64,000 nucleotides of DNA from an uncultured Lentisphaeria bacterium (GTDB lineage: Bacteria; Verrucomicrobiota; Lentisphaeria; Victivallales; UBA1829): assembly GCA_949282305.1 (NCBI GenBank), contig CASDPB010000035.1:1-64000 (forward strand), given 5' to 3'. The notes below the pieces were generated by a model. The model was not told the origin of the DNA. It saw nothing but the letters and a program-made list of their open reading frames with translations, and searched no databases. Made by a program: the position numbers and the translations under genes. Below are positions 5,443 to 16,883 of this stretch, piece by piece. Every line of letters begins with the position of its first letter. Position 1 is the first letter of the stretch.

Positions 5443-6900
5443 ATGAAGAAAAAAATCTTTTGGAGGATTGCATTTGCAATGTTGCTGTTCGCAGTGCCCG
5501 GCTGCAATGCGGAAGAGACGGCGAAAGTGCCCCCCGGCTCGAAAAAGATCCTGATTGCCGTATTCTCCTATACCGGCAACACACGGCAGGTTGCAGAGGC
5601 GATCCGGCAGAAAACCGGAGGCACGTTGATAGAAATCGAACCGGAAACGCCGTATTCCAAAGATTACCAGGCAGTGGTGAAGCAGGGCAGGGAGGAAGTC
5701 AACTCCGGCTTTCTGCCGAAACTGAAAACGAAAGTGGCGGACATTCGCGATTATGATGTGATTTTCGTCGGGTCGCCGATCTGGTGGTACACGATTGCGC
5801 CTCCCGTGGCAGCCTTTCTGCATAATCATGATTTTTCCGGCAAGACAATTGTTCCGTTCTTTACACATGGCGGTTACGGCATCGGGCACAGCCTGAAGGA
5901 CATCCGGAAATATGCGCCGGGAGCGATGCTGACCGGGGAATTCGAGCTGGACCGGGATTCCCTGAAAAAAATAGATGCCGGTGTAACAAAATGGCTTAAG
6001 GAGATCGGAGTCGGGAACATGACAGACAGCAGAGAGACGTCACACATCAGCACTGCGGATTCCATCCGCGACATCGTGAATCATCCGGCTTTCCGGGATT
6101 TCGGGCGGTGTCTCCTGCCGTGGGACGACAGCCGGCGGAATTACGATATTCCGCTGAACCGGGTCGCGACACTGCTTCCGTATCACAGCAACGTGAATCC
6201 GGAGGAAGCCGCCGCTTCGCTCAACCGTCTGATCGACGACGCCGATGCCGGGAAGAAAATCTTTTACGACATCTACACGGAACAGGAAAAAGCGGCGGTT
6301 CCGGCAAAACGCAACACGGGACTTTTCTTCTTCCGGGGAAAGCCGGGCGCACCGTTCGCTGTGGTGAATCCGGGCGGCGGATTTGCCTATGTCGGTTCCT
6401 TTCACGAGGGGTTTCCATACGCCGCCGAGATCAGCGGGAGAGGCTACAACGCTTTTGTTCTGAAGTACCGTACGGGAGGGGGACAGTATGCGGTCGAGGA
6501 TCTGGCGGCGGCGCTGAAATTCATCTTTCAGAATGCCGATGAACTTGGCGTCGGAACGAAACATTATTCGCTGTGGGGAAGTTCGGCGGGTGCGCGCATG
6601 GCGGCGTTCATCGGTTCTTCCGGTCTGTTCCCGAAACCAGCGGCGGTCGTGATGGCTTATACCGGTCAGGCGGAGTTCACGCAGAACGATCCGCCGACTT
6701 TTTCCGTGGTCGGTTCGGAGGACTGGATCGCCAGTCCTTCCGTGGTGGAACATCGGGCGCGGAGAATGAAGAACGCCGGAATTGATGTTGAATTTCATAA
6801 ATACCGCAATGTCGGACACGGTTTCGGCTCCGGCAGAGGAACGAGCGCGGAGGGCTGGATCGGCAACGCGGTCAAATTCTGGGAAAAACACATTTCATAA
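5443..6900 (+). CDS. Lipoprotein fusion: flavodoxin-like domain plus alpha/beta-hydrolase (esterase) domain
   Basis: A protein of 485 residues. The ATG at 5443 follows AAAGGAGG by 6 nt. Residues 1-21 form a lipoprotein-type signal ending in VPGC, with C21 the lipidation candidate. Residues about 34-190 are flavodoxin-like, with the phosphate-binding loop SYTGNT at 42-47 and the flavin-contact loop GSPIWWYT at 110-117. Residues about 225-485 form an alpha/beta-hydrolase of the BD-FAE/acetylesterase type: oxyanion loop NPGGGF at 309-314, nucleophile S381 in GSSAG, Asp near 427 and His459 in NVGHGF. It is first in a five-gene operon, 12 nt before the reductase. A flavodoxin domain is expected in the cytoplasm, so export as a lipoprotein is unusual. 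The substrate is unknown. Confidence 0.8.
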   Translation: MKKKIFWRIAFAMLLFAVPGCNAEETAKVPPGSKKILIAVFSYTGNTRQVAEAIRQKTGGTLIEIEPETPYSKDYQAVVKQGREEVNSGFLPKLKTKVADIRDYDVIFVGSPIWWYTIAPPVAAFLHNHDFSGKTIVPFFTHGGYGIGHSLKDIRKYAPGAMLTGEFELDRDSLKKIDAGVTKWLKEIGVGNMTDSRETSHISTADSIRDIVNHPAFRDFGRCLLPWDDSRRNYDIPLNRVATLLPYHSNVNPEEAAASLNRLIDDADAGKKIFYDIYTEQEKAAVPAKRNTGLFFFRGKPGAPFAVVNPGGGFAYVGSFHEGFPYAAEISGRGYNAFVLKYRTGGGQYAVEDLAAALKFIFQNADELGVGTKHYSLWGSSAGARMAAFIGSSGLFPKPAAVVMAYTGQAEFTQNDPPTFSVVGSEDWIASPSVVEHRARRMKNAGIDVEFHKYRNVGHGFGSGRGTSAEGWIGNAVKFWEKHIS

Positions 6901-6912
6901 GGGAGGTAGAAA

Positions 6913-7905
6913 ATGAAAACAAGAAAACTCGGCAATCTGGAAGTGTCGGCAATCGGAATGGGCTGCATGGGATTCAGTCATGGTTACGGGGCGATTCCCG
7001 CGGAGGAAGAATCCATTCGTCTGATCCGGAAGGCTTACGATCTCGGATGTACACTGTTTGACACGGCGGAAGCCTACGGGCCGTATGTGAATGAGGAACT
7101 GGTGGGAAAAGCGGTCAGGCCGTTCCGGGATAAAATTGTGCTGACAACCAAATTTGTTCCGGTTTCTCTTGCAGGACAGGAGATTCCGGAGGGCAAACTG
7201 AGCCGCCGGGGGGTGAGGAACGCTCTGGAGGCTTCGCTGAAACGGCTCCAGACGGATTATGTCGATCTGTATTATGAGCACCGGGTGCCGCTGGACAGCC
7301 GTGTCGAGGACGTCGCGGAGTGGATGGGCGAGCTGATCCGGGAAGGCAAGATCCGGGCATGGGGTCAATCCCAGTCCACGCCGGAACAGATACGCAGAGC
7401 GCATGTTGTGACGCCGCTTGCCGCAGTTCAGAGCGAATACTCCATCATGGAGCGGATGTTTGAAAAAGAGGTGATCCCGACATGCGGGGAACTGAAGATC
7501 GGCTTTGTCGCCTTTTCCCCCCTCGCCAGTGGCTTTTTGAGCGGGAAATATACAAAGGACATGCACTATTCCGGTGATGATGTGCGGCGGGTCATCACCC
7601 GTTTTTACAAGGAGAATGTGGAGGCGAACCAGCCGCTTCTGGATTTGCTTCACGAGTTCGCCCGGGAGAAACACGCGACACCTGCGCAGGTCTCGCTGGC
7701 ATGGATGCTGCACAAGAGGGATTTCATTGTCCCGATTCCGGGAATGAGGCGGGATGAACGGATTGTCGAGAACCTCGGCGCAGCGGAAGTGGAGCTCTCC
7801 GATGCGGAATTTGAACGCATCGAACAGGCGTTGAGCCGGATTGTCATTCATGGCAACCGGACGGATCAGGACATTGCCAAACTGGGAACCGTGAAATCGC
7901 AATAA
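6913..7905 (+). CDS. Aldo/keto reductase
   Basis: A protein of 330 residues with the full AKR (beta/alpha)8 length. It should reduce aldehydes or ketones with NADPH. The catalytic tetrad is visible: D50 and Y55 in FDTAEAY, K80 in LTTKF, and H123 in YYEHRVP. The C-terminal cofactor-binding segment reads IPGMRRDERIVENLGA. It resembles the YajO/YhdN-like aldo/keto reductases. GGGAGG lies 7 nt before the ATG. Unlike three of its operon partners it has no signal peptide, so it should be cytoplasmic. It sits 12 nt after the flavodoxin-esterase and 18 nt before the kinase. Confidence 0.9.
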   Translation: MKTRKLGNLEVSAIGMGCMGFSHGYGAIPAEEESIRLIRKAYDLGCTLFDTAEAYGPYVNEELVGKAVRPFRDKIVLTTKFVPVSLAGQEIPEGKLSRRGVRNALEASLKRLQTDYVDLYYEHRVPLDSRVEDVAEWMGELIREGKIRAWGQSQSTPEQIRRAHVVTPLAAVQSEYSIMERMFEKEVIPTCGELKIGFVAFSPLASGFLSGKYTKDMHYSGDDVRRVITRFYKENVEANQPLLDLLHEFAREKHATPAQVSLAWMLHKRDFIVPIPGMRRDERIVENLGAAEVELSDAEFERIEQALSRIVIHGNRTDQDIAKLGTVKSQ

Positions 7906-7923
7906 GCAGACGGAGGCGGAAAC

Positions 7924-10197
7924 ATGACATCATCGACCTCGTCTGACAAGGTGGAATTCACACAGGTCATCAGCAAACGGCCGGAAGGGGCATCCGCCGG
8001 TAATTCGGGAACTCATCTGAGCGATATTATCGGCGGTTCCGATCAGGCGATCGAAACGGTGGATCTCGCCGCCGATCCATCGGTTGAATTCCGCCGTATG
8101 CTTGAGAGGAGCGGCAGCCGCTACAAAATCCTGAAACTGATCGCGGAGGGCGGATTCGGGCGGATTTTTCTTGCGCAGGATCTGATCCTGGGACGGAAGG
8201 TCGTCATCAAGTCCCTGAAGGAAAACCACCTTGCCCGACCGGAGAGCGTCAGGAAGTTCATCGCGGAAGCCAAACTCAACGCCCAGCTTGACCATCCGGC
8301 GATTGTACCTTTGTACAGCCTCGACACCGACAGCGCAGACGGGCTTCATCTGGCGATGCAGCTCATCGATGGCATCACCTTGAAGGAGTATCTGAAACGC
8401 TGCCGGGAACGGATGCGGGAGGAGCCGCCGCGCAACCGGCGTTATGAACGTTCGCTCCAGGTGAGGCTCGAAAGTTTTCTCCGGGTCTGCGATGCGATTG
8501 AATACTGCCACAGCCGCGGAATCATCCATTGCGACCTGAAGCCGGAAAACATCATGCTCGGCCGTCACGGGGAAGTTTATGTGATGGACTGGGGAATTGC
8601 CTGTCCGGCGGGAACCGACCGCAGAGGGCATCTCGACGGAACGCCTTCTTACATTGCTCCCGAAGCGTTCCGGGACGGCGCCACTACGCCGCAGACCGAT
8701 GTGTTCGCACTCGGCATGATCCTGAATGAGATCGTCACCCTGCGCGATCCTGTCGCGGGGGCGGACTTCAAGGAGGTCATCGCCAGAGTCAGTGCGGGGG
8801 AATTCGAGCCTTCCACGCCGCTCAACCCCCGCATTCGGATTTCCAAGGCACTGCGGGCGGTCATTGAAAAAGCCCGCGCCGTCGATCCGGCGGATCGCTA
8901 CCGCAGCGTCAAACTGCTGGCGGCGGACGTCCGTCACTATCTTTTCAACGAAGAGGTGACAGCCCGACCGGACTCCCCGCTTCAGAAGCTCATGCGCTTT
9001 ATGTACCGCCACCGTTACGCGACGCTGTTGACGATGGCGGCGGTTTTCTGCATTTCCGCCGCTATGGCGATTTACGGCGCGCGCCGCGAACAATGCGTCG
9101 CAGAAAAGGTGAATCTTGAGATGCTGCGCCGCCTGAAAGTCCAGGGCGTGACGGAAAAAGCCGCGGCGGAGATCGACAACCGGCTGCTCCGCATTCGGGA
9201 ACAGCTCAAGGGACTTGCCACCGGCATGGGCATAGAACTTGCCAAGCCGGAGCCGGGCGGCGACACGGGGCGCTTTTACCTTTCGCAGGAATTTGCGCCC
9301 GGATCGAAAGAGCGTCCCTCCGGATTGTTCCGGATGCCGTTCTACAATCAGGAGATCAGTCTGGAAAACGCCGCCTATTTCAAGCCGGAATCCATGCCGC
9401 GTTCCGAGCTGGAACCGCTGGTCAGACAGCTTCGCGTTTCCCGCCGTCAGGGGCTTACGCTGATACTCGACCATGTCCAGAACGAGGAAGGAAAGGCGCT
9501 TTCCTCCGAAGAGAGCCTGCGCCGTTTCCGGCAGCGCGGAAGCCTGCTCCGGCGCATTACCTATCTCTTTGACAACGGCGCGGTTCTGCGTTTCCCCGGC
9601 ATGTATGAGCCTGTTGCCTCGCCTGACGAATTTCAATGTTCCTGGCTTCGGAGACAGCGGGAACGGGAGGTTACGCGGATGCTGTGGAGTCCTCCCTATC
9701 CGGACACCTCCGGTCATGCGGTCGTCTCCTGCTGGCTGCCGATCCTCAATCCGGCGGGAAAGGAGATCGGACTGACCGGGTTCGAGCTCTGTTTCCATGA
9801 GTTGGTCAAGCCGCTTTTCCGGCTGGCGCGCAATGAGAATTTCCAGACCGTTTGTTTCCTTCTGGATACGGACGGTAATCAGATATTCACAACGGAAGAC
9901 CGGGATTTTGAGGAGGCGCATTACCGGAATGTCGCGGAGACCGCCGCGGCGAAACGTCCTTTCCGTTATCCTGAACTGCTCTGCCGGTTCCGCGACGACA
10001 GCTCTCCCCAGTTCATTGCCCGGCTGGACAACCGGCTGGTCCGGGTCTCCTGGGCAAGGCTCCCGCAGTCCGGCTGGACCCTGGTGCGCATCGTGCCGCC
10101 CGGCACGGTTGACCGCATCAGCCGCACTCTGGACGAGGAGAACAGGAACAATATCGAACAGGAAATCAGACTCGAACGGGAACTGTTTGTCTGGTGA
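7924..10197 (+). CDS. Membrane Ser/Thr protein kinase with extracytoplasmic sensor domain
   Basis: A protein of 757 residues. A cytoplasmic Hanks-type kinase spans about 67-340: glycine loop EGGFGR at 75-80, K96, E115, catalytic loop HCDLKPEN at 202-209, DWG at 222-224 and APE at 245-247. The usual Arg before the catalytic Asp is Cys, so this is a non-RD kinase, and DWG replaces DFG, as seen in some planctomycete-group kinases. One transmembrane helix lies near 366-386, followed by about 370 extracytoplasmic residues that may form a Cache/PAS-like sensor. It sits third in the redox operon, 18 nt after the reductase and 47 nt before the flavodoxin-CMD-cupin gene, so it may sense or control that pathway. 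Targets are unknown. Confidence 0.85.
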   Translation: MTSSTSSDKVEFTQVISKRPEGASAGNSGTHLSDIIGGSDQAIETVDLAADPSVEFRRMLERSGSRYKILKLIAEGGFGRIFLAQDLILGRKVVIKSLKENHLARPESVRKFIAEAKLNAQLDHPAIVPLYSLDTDSADGLHLAMQLIDGITLKEYLKRCRERMREEPPRNRRYERSLQVRLESFLRVCDAIEYCHSRGIIHCDLKPENIMLGRHGEVYVMDWGIACPAGTDRRGHLDGTPSYIAPEAFRDGATTPQTDVFALGMILNEIVTLRDPVAGADFKEVIARVSAGEFEPSTPLNPRIRISKALRAVIEKARAVDPADRYRSVKLLAADVRHYLFNEEVTARPDSPLQKLMRFMYRHRYATLLTMAAVFCISAAMAIYGARREQCVAEKVNLEMLRRLKVQGVTEKAAAEIDNRLLRIREQLKGLATGMGIELAKPEPGGDTGRFYLSQEFAPGSKERPSGLFRMPFYNQEISLENAAYFKPESMPRSELEPLVRQLRVSRRQGLTLILDHVQNEEGKALSSEESLRRFRQRGSLLRRITYLFDNGAVLRFPGMYEPVASPDEFQCSWLRRQREREVTRMLWSPPYPDTSGHAVVSCWLPILNPAGKEIGLTGFELCFHELVKPLFRLARNENFQTVCFLLDTDGNQIFTTEDRDFEEAHYRNVAETAAAKRPFRYPELLCRFRDDSSPQFIARLDNRLVRVSWARLPQSGWTLVRIVPPGTVDRISRTLDEENRNNIEQEIRLERELFVW

Positions 10198-10244
10198 AAT
10201 GAAAATTGAAAATGCTTGCAATAACCAGAAATGGAGGGTAAAAA

Positions 10245-11789
10245 ATGATGAAGAAAGCAATGGTATGTGCAATCGCCGTATCGCTGATCAGCGGAGTGTC
10301 CGCATCTGTGCAGGGAGCGGAACCGGACAGGATTGAAACGCAGCCGGAAAAAGTTCTGATCGCCTATTACTCGTGGGGCGGAAACACCCGGACGGCGGCG
10401 GAAATGATTCAAAAAGCGACCGGGGGAACGCTGTTTGAAATCAAACCGGTCAAACCGTATCCGTCCGGATACCGGGAATGTGTGGAACAGGCGAAAAAAG
10501 AGATCAATTCCGGCTGGAAACCGGAACTTGCCGGAAAAATCGACCTGAAAAAGTATGACGTGATCTTCATCGGTTCCCCGAACTGGTGGGGAACCATGGC
10601 GCCGCCGGTGGCGACTTTCCTGACTGTGCACGAGCTGAAGGGAAAGACCGTCGTTCCGTTCTTCACGCACGGCGGAGGCGGAATGCAGCGCTGCGAGACC
10701 GACGTGCGGAAGCTCTGTCCCGCGTCCAGAGTGCTGAAAGCCGCGACTTTTTCCGGCGGGGGCATCCGTTCCGCGGAGGGAGCAGTTCGGAAATGGCTTG
10801 ATGAGATCATCTCCGTCAAGCCGGCGGCGCTTTCGGCAAAGGAACGGAGCGTTGCCGCGATCAGCATGTACACCGCGCGCGGCGATATGGAAAAGCTGAA
10901 AACATCTCTGAATGCCGGGCTTGACGCCGGACTGACCGTCAACGAGATCAAGGAGATTCTTGTTCAGCTCTACGCCTACTGCGGTTTCCCGCGCAGCCTG
11001 AACGCTCTCAACTGCTTCATGGCTCTGGTCGGGGAACGAGAGGCGAGGGGGATGAAAGATGTTCAGGGAAGACTGCCCGGCCCGCTTCCGGCAGGTTCAA
11101 ACATTGAGTTCGGCGGAGCCAACCAGACGAAACTCTGCGGCGTCGAAATCAAAGGGGCTGTCTATGAATTCGCTCCGGCAATCGACCGTTTCCTGAAAGG
11201 ACATCTGTTCGGAGACATCTTCGGTCGCGACAATCTCGACTGGAAGACCCGCGAACTTGCCACCGTCGCCGCGCTCGCCTCCATGGACGGCACCGAGCGT
11301 CAGCGCGATTCCCATATCCGCGTCGGCAGGCACAACGGACTTACCGAAGCGCAGATTGCGGAGGTGCTGGCGATGGCAGCGCCGCTGAAGCGCGGAGATG
11401 TCTTTCCGCAGGGAGAAAAAGTCAGCAGTCCCACATTCAGCGGAAATGCCTGGCTTGCGCCTCTGGTGAATAATAAGAATGCCGACCTCGCCGCCTCCAA
11501 TGTGACTTTTGCACCCGGTGTGCGCAACAACTGGCATTGCCATTCCATCGGTCAGATTCTGCTCTGCACTTCCGGCGTGGGATATTATCAGGAGCGCGGC
11601 AGGGCGGCGCGGCGGCTCCTGCCCGGCGATGTGGTCGATATTCCCGCCGGGGTGGATCATTGGCATGGCGCGGCTCCGGACAGTGAGTTTTCTCATCTTG
11701 CCGTGATGCCGAAGCGCAGTGAAAATAAAACCGTCTGGGGCGGTCCCGTCACGGACGCGGAGTATGAAAACGCCGTTTCCGGAAAATGA
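10245..11789 (+). CDS. Exported three-part fusion: flavodoxin, carboxymuconolactone-decarboxylase-like (CMD) and cupin domains
   Basis: A protein of 514 residues with GGAGG 7 nt before the ATG. Residues 1-25 are a Sec signal peptide (cleavage near VQGA). Flavodoxin-like residues 37-190 include SWGGNT and GSPNWWGT. CMD/AhpD-like residues about 195-385 occur as two repeats, one with YAYCGFPRSLNAL. The cupin at about 400-500 has WHCH near 429-432, a following GQ and DHWHGA as metal ligands. Separate genes for these three domains cluster in many gut bacteria; here they are one chain. It lies 46 nt before the alcohol dehydrogenase. The flavodoxin domain resembles that of the first operon gene. The reaction is unknown; AhpD-like redox or detoxification chemistry is a guess. 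Confidence 0.82.
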   Translation: MMKKAMVCAIAVSLISGVSASVQGAEPDRIETQPEKVLIAYYSWGGNTRTAAEMIQKATGGTLFEIKPVKPYPSGYRECVEQAKKEINSGWKPELAGKIDLKKYDVIFIGSPNWWGTMAPPVATFLTVHELKGKTVVPFFTHGGGGMQRCETDVRKLCPASRVLKAATFSGGGIRSAEGAVRKWLDEIISVKPAALSAKERSVAAISMYTARGDMEKLKTSLNAGLDAGLTVNEIKEILVQLYAYCGFPRSLNALNCFMALVGEREARGMKDVQGRLPGPLPAGSNIEFGGANQTKLCGVEIKGAVYEFAPAIDRFLKGHLFGDIFGRDNLDWKTRELATVAALASMDGTERQRDSHIRVGRHNGLTEAQIAEVLAMAAPLKRGDVFPQGEKVSSPTFSGNAWLAPLVNNKNADLAASNVTFAPGVRNNWHCHSIGQILLCTSGVGYYQERGRAARRLLPGDVVDIPAGVDHWHGAAPDSEFSHLAVMPKRSENKTVWGGPVTDAEYENAVSGK

Positions 11790-11835
11790 TGTCCTGCCCC
11801 CCGTGAAAAAATCAGCAAATTTGAGGAGATGAAAA

Positions 11836-12969
11836 ATGAAAAAAATGATGATGACCCTGATGTCCGCCGCGTCTCTTGTGTCTTCCGGTTTTGCCGCGGA
11901 GACGGAGTCCCGCATTCCCGCCAGAGGGCTTGCCCTCGACAAGCCGGGATCCGATTTCCGCGTGGTCGATTTCACCCGCGACGCGCTTGGACCGAAGGAT
12001 GTCCTGATTGAAATTGACTATTCCGGCATTTGCCACAGCGACATTCATTCTGCGCTCAACGAACACGCCGCACCCGGTTCCAGCCCCCTGTTCCCGATCA
12101 TTCCCGGCCATGAAATCGCGGGACATGTCGTAAGGGTGGGGAGCGATGTGAAGAAATTCGCGGTCGGAGACTTTGCCGGAGTCGGCTGCTTTGTCGATTC
12201 CTGCGGCGAATGCCGGGAATGCAAACGCGGGCTGGAACAGTTCTGCGAGGTTCGGGACCCGGTTCCGAATCTGCTGAAAGACGGCAGAAATTTCCGGGGC
12301 GGCTACTCCAACCGGATTGTTGTTCCGGAACGGAATGCGATCAGGATTCCGGCGGGTGTCGATCTTTCCCGCGTGCCGCCGCTGCTCTGTGCCGGTATCA
12401 CGGTCTGGTCGCCGATTCATTTCTCGAAGGTGAAGAAAGGCGATACGGTCGGCGTCGCCGGTTTCGGCGGACTCGGGCACATGGCGCTCAAATATCTGGT
12501 CGATCTCGGCGCGAAAGTGACGGTCTTCGACATCACCGAGGAGAAACGGAACGATGCGCTCCGCATGGGCGCCGAACGCTATGTGAACATGAAACAGCCG
12601 GATGCGGTCAAGGGACTGGCAGACTCCTTCGACTTCATCATTTCCACGATTCCGGCGGATTACAAGCTCACCGACTACACGAAACTGCTGAAATACGGCG
12701 TCGGGGAACTGGCTGTGGTGGGACTGCCTCCGACGGCGTCGGTCAGTGTGCTCGGGCTGTTCGCCGCGCCCAACCGCAAAATCTACACTTCGATTGTCGG
12801 CGGCATCCGGGAACACCAGGAGTGCATGGATTATTCCGTCGCGCATGGGATTTATCCCGATGTGAAGCTCATCCCCGCCACGCCGGAGGCTTTGAAGGAA
12901 GCCTACCGGAACGTGATTGACGGCAAGGTGAAATTCCGTTATGTGATCGACATGAAGACCTTGAAATAA
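11836..12969 (+). CDS. Zinc alcohol dehydrogenase (cinnamyl-alcohol dehydrogenase/YahK type) with Sec signal
   Basis: A protein of 377 residues of the medium-chain dehydrogenase family. Catalytic-zinc residues lie in GICHSDIH and PGHEIAGH, and the structural zinc Cys cluster in CGECRECKRGLEQFC. The nucleotide loop is GFGGLGH, typical of NADP-dependent CAD enzymes. Before the enzyme begins at about residue 28 there is an N-terminal extension, MKKMMMTLMSAASLVSSGFA, that reads as a signal peptide with cleavage near AFAA/FAAE. An exported nicotinamide-dependent dehydrogenase is unusual because the cofactor is cytoplasmic. It is the last gene of the redox operon. GAGGAG precedes the ATG at 11836. 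Confidence 0.85.
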   Translation: MKKMMMTLMSAASLVSSGFAAETESRIPARGLALDKPGSDFRVVDFTRDALGPKDVLIEIDYSGICHSDIHSALNEHAAPGSSPLFPIIPGHEIAGHVVRVGSDVKKFAVGDFAGVGCFVDSCGECRECKRGLEQFCEVRDPVPNLLKDGRNFRGGYSNRIVVPERNAIRIPAGVDLSRVPPLLCAGITVWSPIHFSKVKKGDTVGVAGFGGLGHMALKYLVDLGAKVTVFDITEEKRNDALRMGAERYVNMKQPDAVKGLADSFDFIISTIPADYKLTDYTKLLKYGVGELAVVGLPPTASVSVLGLFAAPNRKIYTSIVGGIREHQECMDYSVAHGIYPDVKLIPATPEALKEAYRNVIDGKVKFRYVIDMKTLK

Positions 12970-13350: not shown

Positions 13351-14457
13351 ATGGCGGAAATGGCAAAATTGGCGTATCTGGTCAAACCCGGTGAATTTGA
13401 ATTCAGAGAATACCCGATTCCTGAAATCAATGATGACCAGATTCTCATCAAAGTGGAAGGTTGCGGCGTATGCGGAACCGACGGACATGAATATAAGCGC
13501 GACCCCTTCGGGCTCTGCCCGGTTGTTCTCGGGCATGAAGGTTCCGGCGAGATCATCAAGCTCGGCAGGAATGTGAAGACCGATTCCGCCGGAAAGCCTG
13601 TCAAGGTCGGCGACAAGCTGGTGACATGTATCATTCCCTGCGGCAAGTGTCCTGCGTGCAAGAACACTCCCGCCCGCACGAACCTCTGTGAAAACTGCGG
13701 AGTTTACGGGCTTTTCCCGGATGACGACATTCATCTGAACGGTTATTTTGCCACCCATATGGTGATCCGCAAAGGTTCCACATTCTTCAATGTGACCGGT
13801 ATGACGCTTGACCAGCGGATGCTGGTGGAACCCGCCGCAGTTGCCGTTCACGCCGTGGAACGTGCAAAAACAACGGGACTTCTCAAGTTCAACACAACGG
13901 TGCTGATCCAGGGATGCGGCCCCATCGGTCTGATGGTGATGGCGGTTGTCCGCACACTCGGCATTGAGAATATCATCGCGCTTGACGGCAATGACAACCG
14001 GCTTGAGATTGCCAGAACTCTTGGCGCTTCCCATACGTTCAACTTCACGAAATATCCGGATTTCAGCAAAATGCTGGAAGAGGTCAAGGCTGCGACGGAT
14101 GGTCTCGGCGCGGAATTCGCGTTCCAGTGCACCGGTGTTCCCGCCGCTCACGCGAGCGTGTGGAAGATGATTCGGCGCGGCGGCGGACTCTGTGAAGTCG
14201 GTTTCTTCCTGGATGGCGGAAACTGCTCCATCAATCCGCATTACGACCTCTGCAACAAAGAAGTTGCCGCCGTCGGTTCCTGGGTGTATACCCCGCAGGA
14301 TTACCCGACGACGTTTGATTTCCTCCGCAGGGCAAAGGCGATCGGGCTTCCTGTCGAGAAATTCGTCACGCACCACTTCCCGCTCTCCCAGATCAAGGAG
14401 GCGCTTGAAACGAATGTGCAGATGAAGGGAATCAAAGTTGCGGTTGTCAATGAATAA
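13351..14457 (+). CDS. Zinc-binding medium-chain dehydrogenase (threonine/sorbitol dehydrogenase-like)
   Basis: A protein of 368 residues. Catalytic zinc ligands lie in GCGVCGTDGHE and LGHEGSGE, structural-zinc cysteines in CGKCPACKNTPARTNLC, and the NAD loop in GCGPIGLM. The overall layout resembles threonine, sorbitol or polyol dehydrogenases, but substrate cannot be assigned from sequence. Unlike the dehydrogenase ending at 12969 it has no signal peptide. TGGAG lies 8 nt before the ATG. It has its own promoter and a strong terminator, so it is probably a single-gene unit, although its zinc-dehydrogenase class echoes the neighbouring operon. Confidence 0.87.
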   Translation: MAEMAKLAYLVKPGEFEFREYPIPEINDDQILIKVEGCGVCGTDGHEYKRDPFGLCPVVLGHEGSGEIIKLGRNVKTDSAGKPVKVGDKLVTCIIPCGKCPACKNTPARTNLCENCGVYGLFPDDDIHLNGYFATHMVIRKGSTFFNVTGMTLDQRMLVEPAAVAVHAVERAKTTGLLKFNTTVLIQGCGPIGLMVMAVVRTLGIENIIALDGNDNRLEIARTLGASHTFNFTKYPDFSKMLEEVKAATDGLGAEFAFQCTGVPAAHASVWKMIRRGGGLCEVGFFLDGGNCSINPHYDLCNKEVAAVGSWVYTPQDYPTTFDFLRRAKAIGLPVEKFVTHHFPLSQIKEALETNVQMKGIKVAVVNE

Positions 14458-14594: not shown

Positions 14595-14670
14595 GCCCCG
14601 ATAGCTCAGGGGATAGAGCAGCAGTTTCCTAAACTGTTGGTCGCAGGTTCAAATCCTGTTCGGGGTACCA
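14595..14670 (+). tRNA. tRNA-Arg (anticodon CCT)
   Basis: 76 nt with an encoded CCA. The acceptor stem GCCCCGA pairs with TCGGGGT (one G-U). The D-arm region is TAGCTCAGGGGAT. The anticodon arm GCAGT-TTCCTAA-ACTGT gives anticodon CCT at loop positions 34-36, reading AGG. The T-arm is CAGGTTCAAATCCTG. A tyrosine recombinase begins 123 nt downstream, so its 3' end is a likely attachment site. Confidence 0.95.
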
Positions 14671-14729
14671 TTTATTTAGCCTCATTTTTTGATCTCGGAT
14701 AAAGGTAAGATCAACGGAGTGTAGCGAAT

Positions 14730-14761
14730 AATGTAACATTTTGCGGATTATGTGTTACATT
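14730..14761. repeat. 9-bp perfect inverted repeat between tRNA-Arg and the integrase
   Basis: AATGTAACA and TGTTACATT are separated by 14 nt, ending 31 nt before the integrase ATG. Position and symmetry suit an operator for integrase autoregulation or a recombinase/excisionase arm site. No function is proven. Confidence 0.5.
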
Positions 14762-14792
14762 GTTGCATATAAGAGAAAGAGAGGCGGTTTTT

Positions 14793-16109
14793 ATGGGAGT
14801 GTATCTACGAGGGAATATCTACTGGTGCAACTTTGCTGTCAATGGCAAACGTTATCAGATGAGCACCAAGAGAACTGTGGAGAAAGATGCTCTGGAGTTC
14901 GAAAAGTCTCAGATTAAAAGACTTAGCGGTAATCAGGCAAAGAAAGCTCTCCTTGAGAAAATCAAAGTAGGACTTGTGGAACAGTCTCTTTCTTTCAGTG
15001 GCGCATGGGAATATTTTATCAAGTATCCACGCAAAAAGACTCCCGGAAAAGAACAGACTGAACGATATTACAGTATTTGGGGGGATTTTGAAGCGTTTTG
15101 TCTGGAGCGCAAAATTACTGCCGTGGCATCTGTAACTGACAAAGATGCTGTTGCTTATGCCTCTTACATTCGCGAGATGGGACGTTATTCCAAAATCGTA
15201 TATGAGAGAAGTGGAAAGAAACTGGCTTTTCTGCCGAAGGTTAATTTGTTTTCCGCCAGTACTTACAATGCATATATCGGATGTCTCAAACTTATTTTTA
15301 CTGTCCTGACAAATGGTAAGTATGTGATTGAAAATCCTTTCTCCGGGATTCAGAAGATGGCTTCCGATGAGATTCCACGCGAAATTTTTACGGAAAGCGA
15401 AATTGCGTTACTGTTACAAAATCCGCTACATCCTCTGTATGGAGTTGTTATGATTGCTTTGTATACCGGGTTGCGCTTCGGGAACATGGCACATCTTACG
15501 TGGGATCGTGTCGATTTAACCAACGGGTGGATACGGGCGAAGCAAGAAAAGACCGGAAACAAGGTGGATATCCCGATTCTGCCGCCTTTGATGCAATATT
15601 TCAGGCGTCTGAAACAAACGTCTGAATTTGTCCTGCCTGACATTGCCGCCCGTTATGACAAGGATGAGTCGGATCTTTCCAAATCTTTCAAGTCGTATTT
15701 AAGGGAGTTGGGTATCAAAAATATTGTAGCAAAAGTTGAAGGTAGGTCAAAGTCCGCGTCTCTGAAAGATATCCACAGTCTGCGGCATACCTTTGCGTAT
15801 ATCGCCGGAAAGCATGGCGTGCCGCTTATGGTCGTGCAATCGGTGCTTGGTCATATGACTCCAGCCATGACACGACATTATATGGCGCACGCAACGGAGC
15901 AGGACAAGCAACAGGCGCTTGCCATCATTCCGGATTTATCAATCAGGATCGAACCATCAGGCGGGCGGGATGTGAAAAAAGAACTGCTCGGGATTATCGA
16001 AAGTATGAATTCTGAAAATCTCGAGCAGAAGAAATCGTTACTGCTCCGGATGCTGTCCTGTCTGTCTGTTTCGAGATGGGGAGATGGGGAACGCGGGGTA
16101 CCGGACTGA
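14793..16109 (+). CDS. Tyrosine recombinase (phage/ICE-type integrase)
   Basis: A protein of 438 residues, starting at the ATG at 14793 with GAGAGG 8 nt upstream. It has an N-terminal Arm/SAM-like region, a core-binding region and a C-terminal catalytic domain. Catalytic residues are R228 in TGLRFGN, H328 and R331 in HSLRHT, the LGHM histidine, and Y363 in TRHYMAH. It sits directly downstream of tRNA-Arg(CCT), the classical arrangement for integration into a tRNA 3' end. It looks A+T-rich beside its core neighbours. No structural phage or conjugation gene follows, only a toxin-antitoxin pair, so this is a small or decayed integrative element. The last codons contain CGGGGTACC (16094-16102), repeating the tRNA 3' end for only 9 bp. 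Confidence 0.93.
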   Translation: MGVYLRGNIYWCNFAVNGKRYQMSTKRTVEKDALEFEKSQIKRLSGNQAKKALLEKIKVGLVEQSLSFSGAWEYFIKYPRKKTPGKEQTERYYSIWGDFEAFCLERKITAVASVTDKDAVAYASYIREMGRYSKIVYERSGKKLAFLPKVNLFSASTYNAYIGCLKLIFTVLTNGKYVIENPFSGIQKMASDEIPREIFTESEIALLLQNPLHPLYGVVMIALYTGLRFGNMAHLTWDRVDLTNGWIRAKQEKTGNKVDIPILPPLMQYFRRLKQTSEFVLPDIAARYDKDESDLSKSFKSYLRELGIKNIVAKVEGRSKSASLKDIHSLRHTFAYIAGKHGVPLMVVQSVLGHMTPAMTRHYMAHATEQDKQQALAIIPDLSIRIEPSGGRDVKKELLGIIESMNSENLEQKKSLLLRMLSCLSVSRWGDGERGVPD

Positions 16110-16207
16110 ACAGACCTGACGGACAAGTCGGACAGCGCGGGAGGCGGAGCCGGAAGCGAGAGGACAGGGGGGAGTGGATGCCGGATGGTGTCGGCGGGGG
16201 AAATTTC

Positions 16208-16531
16208 TCAGCAGCCAGTCCGGAATATTCTGGTGTAATCTTTTTTGGCATTGAACACTGCATGAATAAAAACGGTTTTCCTGCTCTCGTTTACAGTATA
16301 AAAAGTCAAATATTCTCCTTTCACAAGGTATCGATATCCGGAAATCAGCAGAAAACGGTCCCTGGGCAATGCTCCGTATAAGGGGAATGTCTTCAGACGT
16401 TCCGTATCTGCCTGTAACTCACGGATCAGGCGGATTGCCGTTTCCGGACTCCCAGACTGTTCCAGAACATAAGTTGCAATATCTGCGTAATTCTGCCGCG
16501 CCGTTGCGGTAATTTCAAGTTTATAACTCAT
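16208..16531 (-). CDS. RelE/ParE-superfamily toxin
   Basis: A protein of 107 residues of the RelE/ParE fold. It has the N-terminal KLEITATARQNYADIATYV helix pattern, basic residues around GYRYLVKGEYLTFYTVNE and a C-terminal VFIHAVFNAKKDYTRIF strand region. Such toxins cleave mRNA at the ribosome or poison gyrase; the sequence does not decide which. Its start overlaps the antitoxin stop by 4 nt (ATGA), the normal coupled arrangement. With the antitoxin it probably stabilises the integrated element. Confidence 0.85.
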   Translation of the reverse strand: MSYKLEITATARQNYADIATYVLEQSGSPETAIRLIRELQADTERLKTFPLYGALPRDRFLLISGYRYLVKGEYLTFYTVNESRKTVFIHAVFNAKKDYTRIFRTGC

Positions 16532-16815
16532 TTTTTCAATCCGGATATGATTTCGCTGAAAACTTTATCCGCAGGATACGTCCTGCCGTTTTTGACATCA
16601 TCGGCGGCATCCGCCAGTGTGGAATACATCCGCAAACGTTCTTTCAGGTCATTCAGTTCCAACTGCATCCGGTTGAATTGTTCATGACTCATCAGGATGG
16701 TGTCCTCCCTGCCATTGACCGTAACTGCAACGGGATGCCGTCTGCAAAGCTTGGAGATTTCCGCGTAATTTGTCCGAATATCTCTTGACGGACGGATTGA
16801 TATCTCGGTTTCCAT
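16528..16815 (-). CDS. Phd/YefM-type antitoxin
   Basis: A protein of 95 residues, using the ATG at 16815 because GAGG lies 6 nt upstream. The N-terminus SIRPSRDIRTNYAEIS followed by VAVTVNGREDTILMSHEQF matches the Phd/YefM DNA-binding fold (xxR...S, then the strand-turn-strand with vaVT.nG). The C-terminal half is a charged helix expected to wrap the toxin. It usually represses its own promoter. A 13-nt A run on the coding strand lies between its promoter and ribosome-binding site; an upstream in-frame ATG (16866) would translate that run as lysines, but it falls at the transcription start and is unlikely to be used. Confidence 0.85.
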   Translation of the reverse strand: METEISIRPSRDIRTNYAEISKLCRRHPVAVTVNGREDTILMSHEQFNRMQLELNDLKERLRMYSTLADAADDVKNGRTYPADKVFSEIISGLKK

Positions 16816-16854
16816 GATATACCTCATTTCGTTTTTTTTTTTTTGCGTTGTCAT

Positions 16855-16883
16855 ATTATAACTCAATAATACAACGGTTTCAA
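16855..16883 (-). promoter_or_regulatory. Sigma-70-like promoter of the toxin-antitoxin operon
   Basis: On the minus strand: TTGAAA (16883-16878), 17-bp spacer, TATAAT (16860-16855). The A13 tract (T13 on the plus strand at 16832-16844) lies in the leader. The rest of the gap to 17028 holds two direct copies of GTTGACAGAA (16914 and 16941) with no evident role. Confidence 0.6.

Follow-up and report, generated by a model that had tools for sequence, protein, structure and literature searches.

Flavodoxins are textbook cytoplasmic electron carriers; the one described here is apparently exported and joined covalently to PcaC-like and hydroxynitrile-lyase-like domains, an association that occurs in several orders. 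A separate-gene pair in Akkermansia, Victivallales and relatives (contig C121 of our source genome, that of a gut-type bacterium; loci L057 and L058) resembles the fusion in domains, their order, apparent export and sequence (about 60-69% identity), differing from it in comprising two genes with two signal peptides. The Akkermansia gene of this pair is, at a guess, Amuc_1806, which, in the relevant passage of a review, figures as a gamma-CMD of untested activity that includes a quercetinase-like domain (PMC9820369). The same three parts, with export signals recognized by eye, occur in Enterobacteriaceae (pSCU-111-1, a K. pneumoniae plasmid and E. coli chromosomes) as adjacent, overlapping or near-overlapping genes, the cupin being annotated as (R)-mandelonitrile lyase; this trio differs in its cupin-CMD-flavodoxin order, Tat-type flavodoxin signal, identity of about 40% and the heavy-metal-type two-component pair alongside. 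The cupin fold and the motif H-x-H-xxx-Q ... H are common to the fusion, the Mn-dependent hydroxynitrile lyase of Granulicella tundricola (4bif, 4uxa, 8oz8) and TM1010 (2f4p), although the latter two are single-domain proteins with 38-47% identity to the fusion cupin, while PcaC shares the CMD fold, the fusion departing from PcaC by a double repeat, apparent export and a score far below cut-off. As for the flavodoxin family itself, the relevant part of one study contrasts flavinylated extracytosolic Flavodoxin_4 proteins, associated with DUF4405, with unflavinylated cytosolic members, and describes the ApbE-flavinylated ones as carrying a flavinylation-motif insert between strand 1 and helix 1 (PMC11334425). 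Compared with the flavinylated proteins of that description, the fusion is alike in family and in predicted extracytoplasmic place, and DUF4405 adjoins the related clusters of Desulfovibrio and K. pneumoniae, but the fusion has no such insert and DUF4405 was not found in the source genome. A search of the open literature, with subscription journals mostly outside its reach, returned no paper on a flavodoxin-CMD-cupin trio or fusion; the folds are known, and their combination is undescribed and repeatedly fused.

The window, i.e., the whole stretch of 64,000 nucleotides analysed here, carries at positions 10245-11789 of the plus strand one open reading frame of 514 amino acids without internal stop, with an ATG start preceded by GGAGG as a good ribosome site. 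The original prediction of a flavodoxin-CMD-cupin triple fusion in a single protein was confirmed with one amendment: there are four modules, CMD being a double repeat. They follow the predicted export signal in the order Flavodoxin_4, CMD, CMD and metal-type cupin, and are located as follows.

10245-10316, plus strand: Sec-type signal peptide, residues 1-24, the only one remaining (sequence, pLDDT below 50, Sec-like by heuristic)
10350-10805, plus strand: Flavodoxin_4 domain, residues 36-187 (Pfam, alignment to 3klb, Foldseek, conservation)
10806-10832, plus strand: fusion joint, flavodoxin tail '..IISVK' running into mature CMD '..PAALSAKE' (alignment of separate-gene homologue, nucleotide view)
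10824-11069, plus strand: first CMD repeat, residues 194-275 (Pfam in two stretches, model)
11145-11408, plus strand: second CMD repeat, residues 301-388 (Pfam, conservation)
11409-11786, plus strand: cupin domain, residues 389-514 (PDB matches, conservation, Foldseek)

The domain boundaries hold in the structure predicted by AlphaFold2 (mean pLDDT 89.8 with 55 alignment rows), which places the flavodoxin at approximately 30-191, CMD helices at 198-381 and cupin strands at 402-498, and leaves residues 1-24 disordered at pLDDT below 50, as a signal peptide would be; the domain-domain orientation in the model is unsettled because pTM is only 0.64. The N-terminus is Sec-like both by eye and by a simple heuristic, and the signal is conserved in homologues, where the same heuristic scored signal-like N-termini in 95 of 97 flavodoxin-first, 52 of 56 CMD-first and 7 of 25 AKR-first ORFs. 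We infer an extracytoplasmic protein that would bind FMN and metal; since the signal is Sec-like, not Tat, loading of FMN would occur outside. ApbE is present in the source genome.

The flavodoxin domain scores above its Pfam cut-off (Flavodoxin_4, residues 36-187, E 6e-26, 91.2 bits against a cut-off of 24). The fold matches FMN-bound 3klb and 3edo, with target TM of 0.81-0.87 to Bacteroides flavoproteins (Foldseek), and the FMN phosphate loop S43-x-x-G46-N47-T48 is intact and conserved among 31 alignment rows (S43 and N47 in 31, G46 and T48 in 30). The alignment with 3klb is ungapped between strand 1 and helix 1, the place where an ApbE-type flavinylation insert would lie, and the domain is apparently an exported family member devoid of this insert. 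CMD is detected in two stretches (E 3e-28, 97.9 bits against the Pfam cut-off of 23), with 4g9q as the Foldseek match (TM 0.59) and with E337, Q353 and H357 of the second repeat invariant in all 27 rows. No CxxC, which we take to be the redox pair defining AhpD-type alkylhydroperoxidases, is present in residues 194-388, and the single cysteine of the CMD region, C246, is replaced by T in the E. coli homologue; an AhpD-type alkylhydroperoxidase was rejected on the lack of CxxC. To judge from its sequence, the CMD part is PcaC-like rather than AhpD-like, even though it stays far below the cut-offs of both the PcaC model TIGR02425 (71.1 versus 155.7 bits, E 9e-20) and PcaDC (E 2e-21). For the cupin, the Cupin_2 score at residues 420-483 falls just short of the Pfam cut-off (E 5e-6, 26.5 versus 27.2 bits), and its identity is secured by PDB matches to TM1010 (2f4p, E 6e-34, Foldseek target TM 0.92) and hydroxynitrile lyase (4bif, E 1e-22, TM 0.83). 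The putative metal ligands H431, H433, Q437 and H472 are conserved in 27 of 27 rows and aligned with those of 4bif, which corresponds to a GtHNL-type site, presumably composed of three His and one Gln, whereas the model of GtHNL-type (R)-mandelonitrile lyases, NF049940, gave 124.4 bits versus a cut-off of 140.

The origin of this arrangement can be read from contig C121 of the same genome, where a flavodoxin gene is directly followed by a CMD-CMD-cupin gene. Its flavodoxin is identical to that of the fusion by 69.0% over the 158 residues of the domain (61% over residues 1-195), and its CMD-CMD-cupin protein is 64% identical to the fused counterpart. The flavodoxin gene ends with '..VKK' and TGA, after which 8 bases precede the ATG of the signal-peptide-bearing CMD-CMD-cupin protein, so that only a stop codon, a spacer and a second signal peptide of the pair are absent from the fusion. 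As judged by alignment of the two forms, this shows that the fusion protein arose by joining adjacent genes for a flavodoxin and a CMD-CMD-cupin protein, both apparently exported. The expectation that the pieces exist elsewhere as separate clustered genes was borne out even within the source genome, and Rosetta-stone evidence comes further from E. coli, K. pneumoniae and Desulfosarcina, in each of which all three parts are separate genes. Among 80 distinct double-CMD ORFs (duplicates collapsed, one short ORF with reversed-order CMD matches dropped), 41 are accompanied by a same-strand flavodoxin gene no more than 300 bp away (upstream in 29, downstream in 12), 4 are fused to flavodoxin, and 35, a few of which lie at contig ends, have no adjoining flavodoxin gene; these figures are no unbiased census, the loci having been collected for their resemblance to the fusion protein. 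In a genome of thousands of genes, chance adjacency of flavodoxin and CMD genes should, by estimate, be well below one in 100. We rejected stop-codon readthrough in two genomes (G055 and G043), as the stop is the end of the flavodoxin gene and a separate start opens the gene that follows.

With its domains in this order, the full-length fusion was found in three genomes of one family: the source genome, one of the same genus and one of a sister genus. These three were the only carriers among 61 near relatives, among 197 genomes of the class and among 387 genomes sampled from the phylum. A scan of 84,980 species genomes, which may leave out the source genome's own record, gave 72 related loci and, in this domain order, only the fusions of the two relatives just named. 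All domains are under purifying selection, with dN/dS of 0.16-0.18 for flavodoxin, 0.07-0.10 for CMD and 0.13-0.17 for cupin. As to the separate form, DNA of the trio was matched in 73 of 5426 E. coli genomes (over at least 80% of the trio in 8), and the fusion protein in 516 of 72,556 plasmid records (at least 80% covered in one place in 22).

The same parts are joined in other ways as well. A 510-aa CMD-CMD-cupin-flavodoxin protein with one N-terminal and no internal signal occurs in one genome of the order; two phylum members encode flavodoxin-cupin proteins with a Tat-type signal, one of which has a signal-bearing ADH as its neighbor; and a DUF362-cupin-flavodoxin protein of 652 aa, adjoining CMD-CMD and AKR genes, was found in two buffalo-gut genomes, the second copy being cut at a contig end. 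Cupin-CMD-CMD proteins are present in Rugamonas, Fusobacterium and two members of the phylum, CMD-CMD-alpha/beta hydrolase in Phocaeicola and CMD-CMD-ABM-cupin in a Bacteroidia MAG. The flavodoxin family of the fusion is also joined to glutathione peroxidase in genus g5 of the same family (L026-L031 and L034) and in a rumen MAG (L111); 3 of these 8 ORFs were scanned with Pfam (GSHPx, E of about 1e-37), and the C-terminal sequence of the remaining five is, by eye, the same. In L104:9608-10666, an ORF truncated at the edge of its locus, Flavodoxin_4 is followed by a partial MBL-fold domain. Tree comparison of the CMD-cupin parts rejected a single origin of the window type and CMD-CMD-cupin-flavodoxin (AU p 0.0004), making the independence of these two fusions well supported by their sequences. 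With the cupin domain, a single origin with the window type was rejected for DUF362-cupin-flavodoxin (p 0.022) and not rejected for flavodoxin-cupin (p 0.0975), while the flavodoxin-only tree separates no fusions (AU p 0.496 and 0.769 for CMD-CMD-cupin-flavodoxin and flavodoxin-cupin, each with the window type). An apparent AKR-ADH fusion (L173:3383-5314) was discarded as probably a product of recombination or misassembly, its joint lying inside a stretch alike in both genes.

In the window, the fusion gene belongs to an operon with gaps of 12, 18, 47 and 46 bp, whose other members are listed below.

5443-6900, plus strand: first gene, exported flavodoxin fused to alpha/beta hydrolase (Pfam Flavodoxin_4 and Abhydrolase_3)
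6913-7905, plus strand: aldo-keto reductase (AKR) without signal peptide (Pfam; 12-bp gap to the previous gene)
7924-10197, plus strand: Ser/Thr protein kinase with a large C-terminal region (Pfam Pkinase) and, by eye, a transmembrane segment
11836-12969, plus strand: zinc-type alcohol dehydrogenase (ADH) with a Sec-like signal peptide (Pfam, heuristic)
13351-14457, plus strand: second zinc-type dehydrogenase, 381 bp further, of uncertain operon membership (Pfam, gap)

All three genomes with the fusion have the same operon of flavodoxin-hydrolase, AKR, kinase, fusion and exported ADH, with an extra flavodoxin gene before the kinase in one of them (G001), and the operon ADH was found at E 1e-80 in the same 3 of 197 genomes of the class. 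The C-terminal region of the kinase matched only dCache_1, below cut-off (E 0.036), and its model (pLDDT 37.5 with 3 rows) is too poor for use. The flavodoxin domain of the fusion had been predicted to be a paralogue of that in the first gene. The relationship is real, with 48.1% identity over 154 aligned residues and an alignment score of 396 versus a shuffled maximum of 48, yet it holds only weakly, since the two domains are distant and the closest paralogue is the C121 copy, separated from the fusion flavodoxin by a tree path of 0.57 as compared with 1.8 for the first gene. A recent tandem copy of the first-gene flavodoxin was rejected by these paths and by its placement in a clade of its own (SH-aLRT 99).

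The C121 pair is surrounded by genes for a divergent LysR regulator, a signal-bearing nitroreductase, a cyclophilin-like lipoprotein, a Tat-signal FMN reductase and a dienelactone-type hydrolase, with a Tat-type AKR further along, and the Akkermansia locus encodes a MerR protein closest to NmlR, though below the NmlR cut-off. Three-gene versions in Enterobacteriaceae and Desulfobacterota adjoin reductases, hydrolases, efflux pumps or a DUF4405 cytochrome: the locus of Desulfovibrio kirbyi holds flavodoxin, DUF4405, cupin, AKR pieces and CMD, and in E. coli and Klebsiella plasmids cupin, CMD and flavodoxin are three separate genes in a row. The locus of the K. pneumoniae plasmid comprises a heavy-metal-type two-component system, a flavodoxin with an ApbE-like motif (by eye), DUF4405, cupin, CMD, a Tat-type flavodoxin, hydrolases, AKRs, an NAD(P)-ADH and RND/MFS efflux.

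The explanation we find best, held tentatively as it falls a little short of an even chance, is that of an exported reductive detoxification enzyme for electrophiles or oxidants in which flavodoxin serves as built-in reductant. Working outside the cytoplasm, FMN of the flavodoxin domain would pass electrons from some envelope donor to an electrophile or oxidant such as a quinone or peroxide, or else maintain the metal cupin in its reduced state; CMD and cupin, kin of 4-carboxymuconolactone decarboxylase and Mn-dependent hydroxynitrile lyase, would rearrange or cleave the product, and AKR, exported ADH and hydrolase of the operon would finish aldehydes or esters. Covalent fusion may hold a labile intermediate or the reductant near and fix stoichiometry where soluble reductant is scarce. 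We count in favor the C121 pair, the clean joint, dN/dS, the other joinings, the adjacency in 41 of 80 cases, the reductase and efflux context and the glutathione peroxidase fusion, and against it the absence of DUF4405 from the source genome, the Sec-like signal with the loading of FMN outside that it would demand, the 35 ORFs with no flavodoxin gene adjoining, which imply that CMD-cupin can work alone or with a flavodoxin encoded elsewhere, and the failure of the named CMD and cupin family models to reach their cut-offs. The original prediction that one substrate is processed by the domains in turn is weakened to a possibility by the other partners of flavodoxin (glutathione peroxidase, alpha/beta hydrolase, partial MBL-fold domain), whose variety makes it look more like a shared reducing partner than a step of a fixed three-step pathway.

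By analogy with PcaC and PcaD, the modules might instead perform successive envelope steps of an aromatic or lactone catabolic pathway: the flavodoxin would reduce a quinone, the cupin would catalyse an opening or isomerisation, CMD would decarboxylate, and a lactone would be opened by the alpha/beta hydrolase. We consider this unlikely: the PcaC-like CMD sequence (with both models far below cut-off), the Phocaeicola and Bacteroidia MAG joinings and the dienelactone-type hydrolase close to the C121 pair speak for it, but the operon is devoid of a transporter and of ring-activating or CoA steps, and the two-component system, NmlR-like MerR (under cut-off), efflux pumps and nitroreductases found elsewhere resemble a stress response. 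Alternatively, flavodoxin may meet no small substrate and only reduce the metal center of the cupin or another group. Joining of its family to glutathione peroxidase, to cupin alone and to alpha/beta hydrolase is what a plug-in reductant would display; nevertheless, the hydrolase fused to flavodoxin needs no electrons, the CMD ORFs with no adjoining flavodoxin gene tell against it, and the short linker and pTM of the model lend no support to FMN-metal contact, rendering such a role improbable. Chance deletion between genes for co-exported and co-regulated proteins, tolerated without functional coupling, would agree with the confinement of the window order to 3 genomes of one family and with the common, evidently working separate form; we regard it as quite improbable given that these parts have been joined in several further orders, that all domains are under purifying selection and that the internal signal peptide was lost cleanly. 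An assembly artefact, conceivable insofar as the other two fused copies are titled MAGs and the source genome is a draft of 132 contigs, deserves almost no credence given three assemblies with 82-95% protein identity, identical length and joint, and the coexistence of the separate pair in the source genome.

A broader reading suggests itself, which we find doubtful though worth stating: exported Flavodoxin_4 may be a general plug-in envelope reductase module, welded repeatedly to detoxifying enzymes in need of electrons (CMD-cupin, cupin, DUF362-cupin, glutathione peroxidase, hydrolase), and the trio may be the core of an unrecognised, horizontally spread envelope system against electrophiles and oxidants that would range from Victivallales to Enterobacteriaceae plasmids. 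Through the fusions, three families about which little is understood become functionally linked at one stroke, which is rare, and joinings in varied orders among related bacteria point to unstudied cell-envelope chemistry. The separate-gene version is carried by E. coli, an organism open to genetic work, and by Klebsiella plasmids, there beside efflux pumps, so that its role is directly testable.

Several observations concern the operon and its surroundings. The operon ADH (11836-12969) is of NAD(P) type, and the four homologues from Bacteroidota and Enterobacteriaceae that were inspected have no signal peptide. The Ser/Thr kinase (7924-10197) is retained in all three fusion genomes, and a truncated relative in G027 (L050:6326-7153), 69% identical over the kinase domain, overlaps a CMD-cupin gene. 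Comparison of positions 5443-12969 with the corresponding loci L037 and L038 revealed a mosaic, in which AKR is 99.4% identical to that of the sister-genus genome G024 and 47% to that of the same-genus G001, while the fusion is 82-83% identical to both and the fusions of G001 and G024 are 94.6% identical to each other; these sequence relations suggest recombination or transfer across genera. Downstream, at 14595-16866, tRNA-Arg(CCT) is followed by a tyrosine integrase and by a ParE/RelE-like toxin with a Phd-like antitoxin, the latter two recognized by eye.
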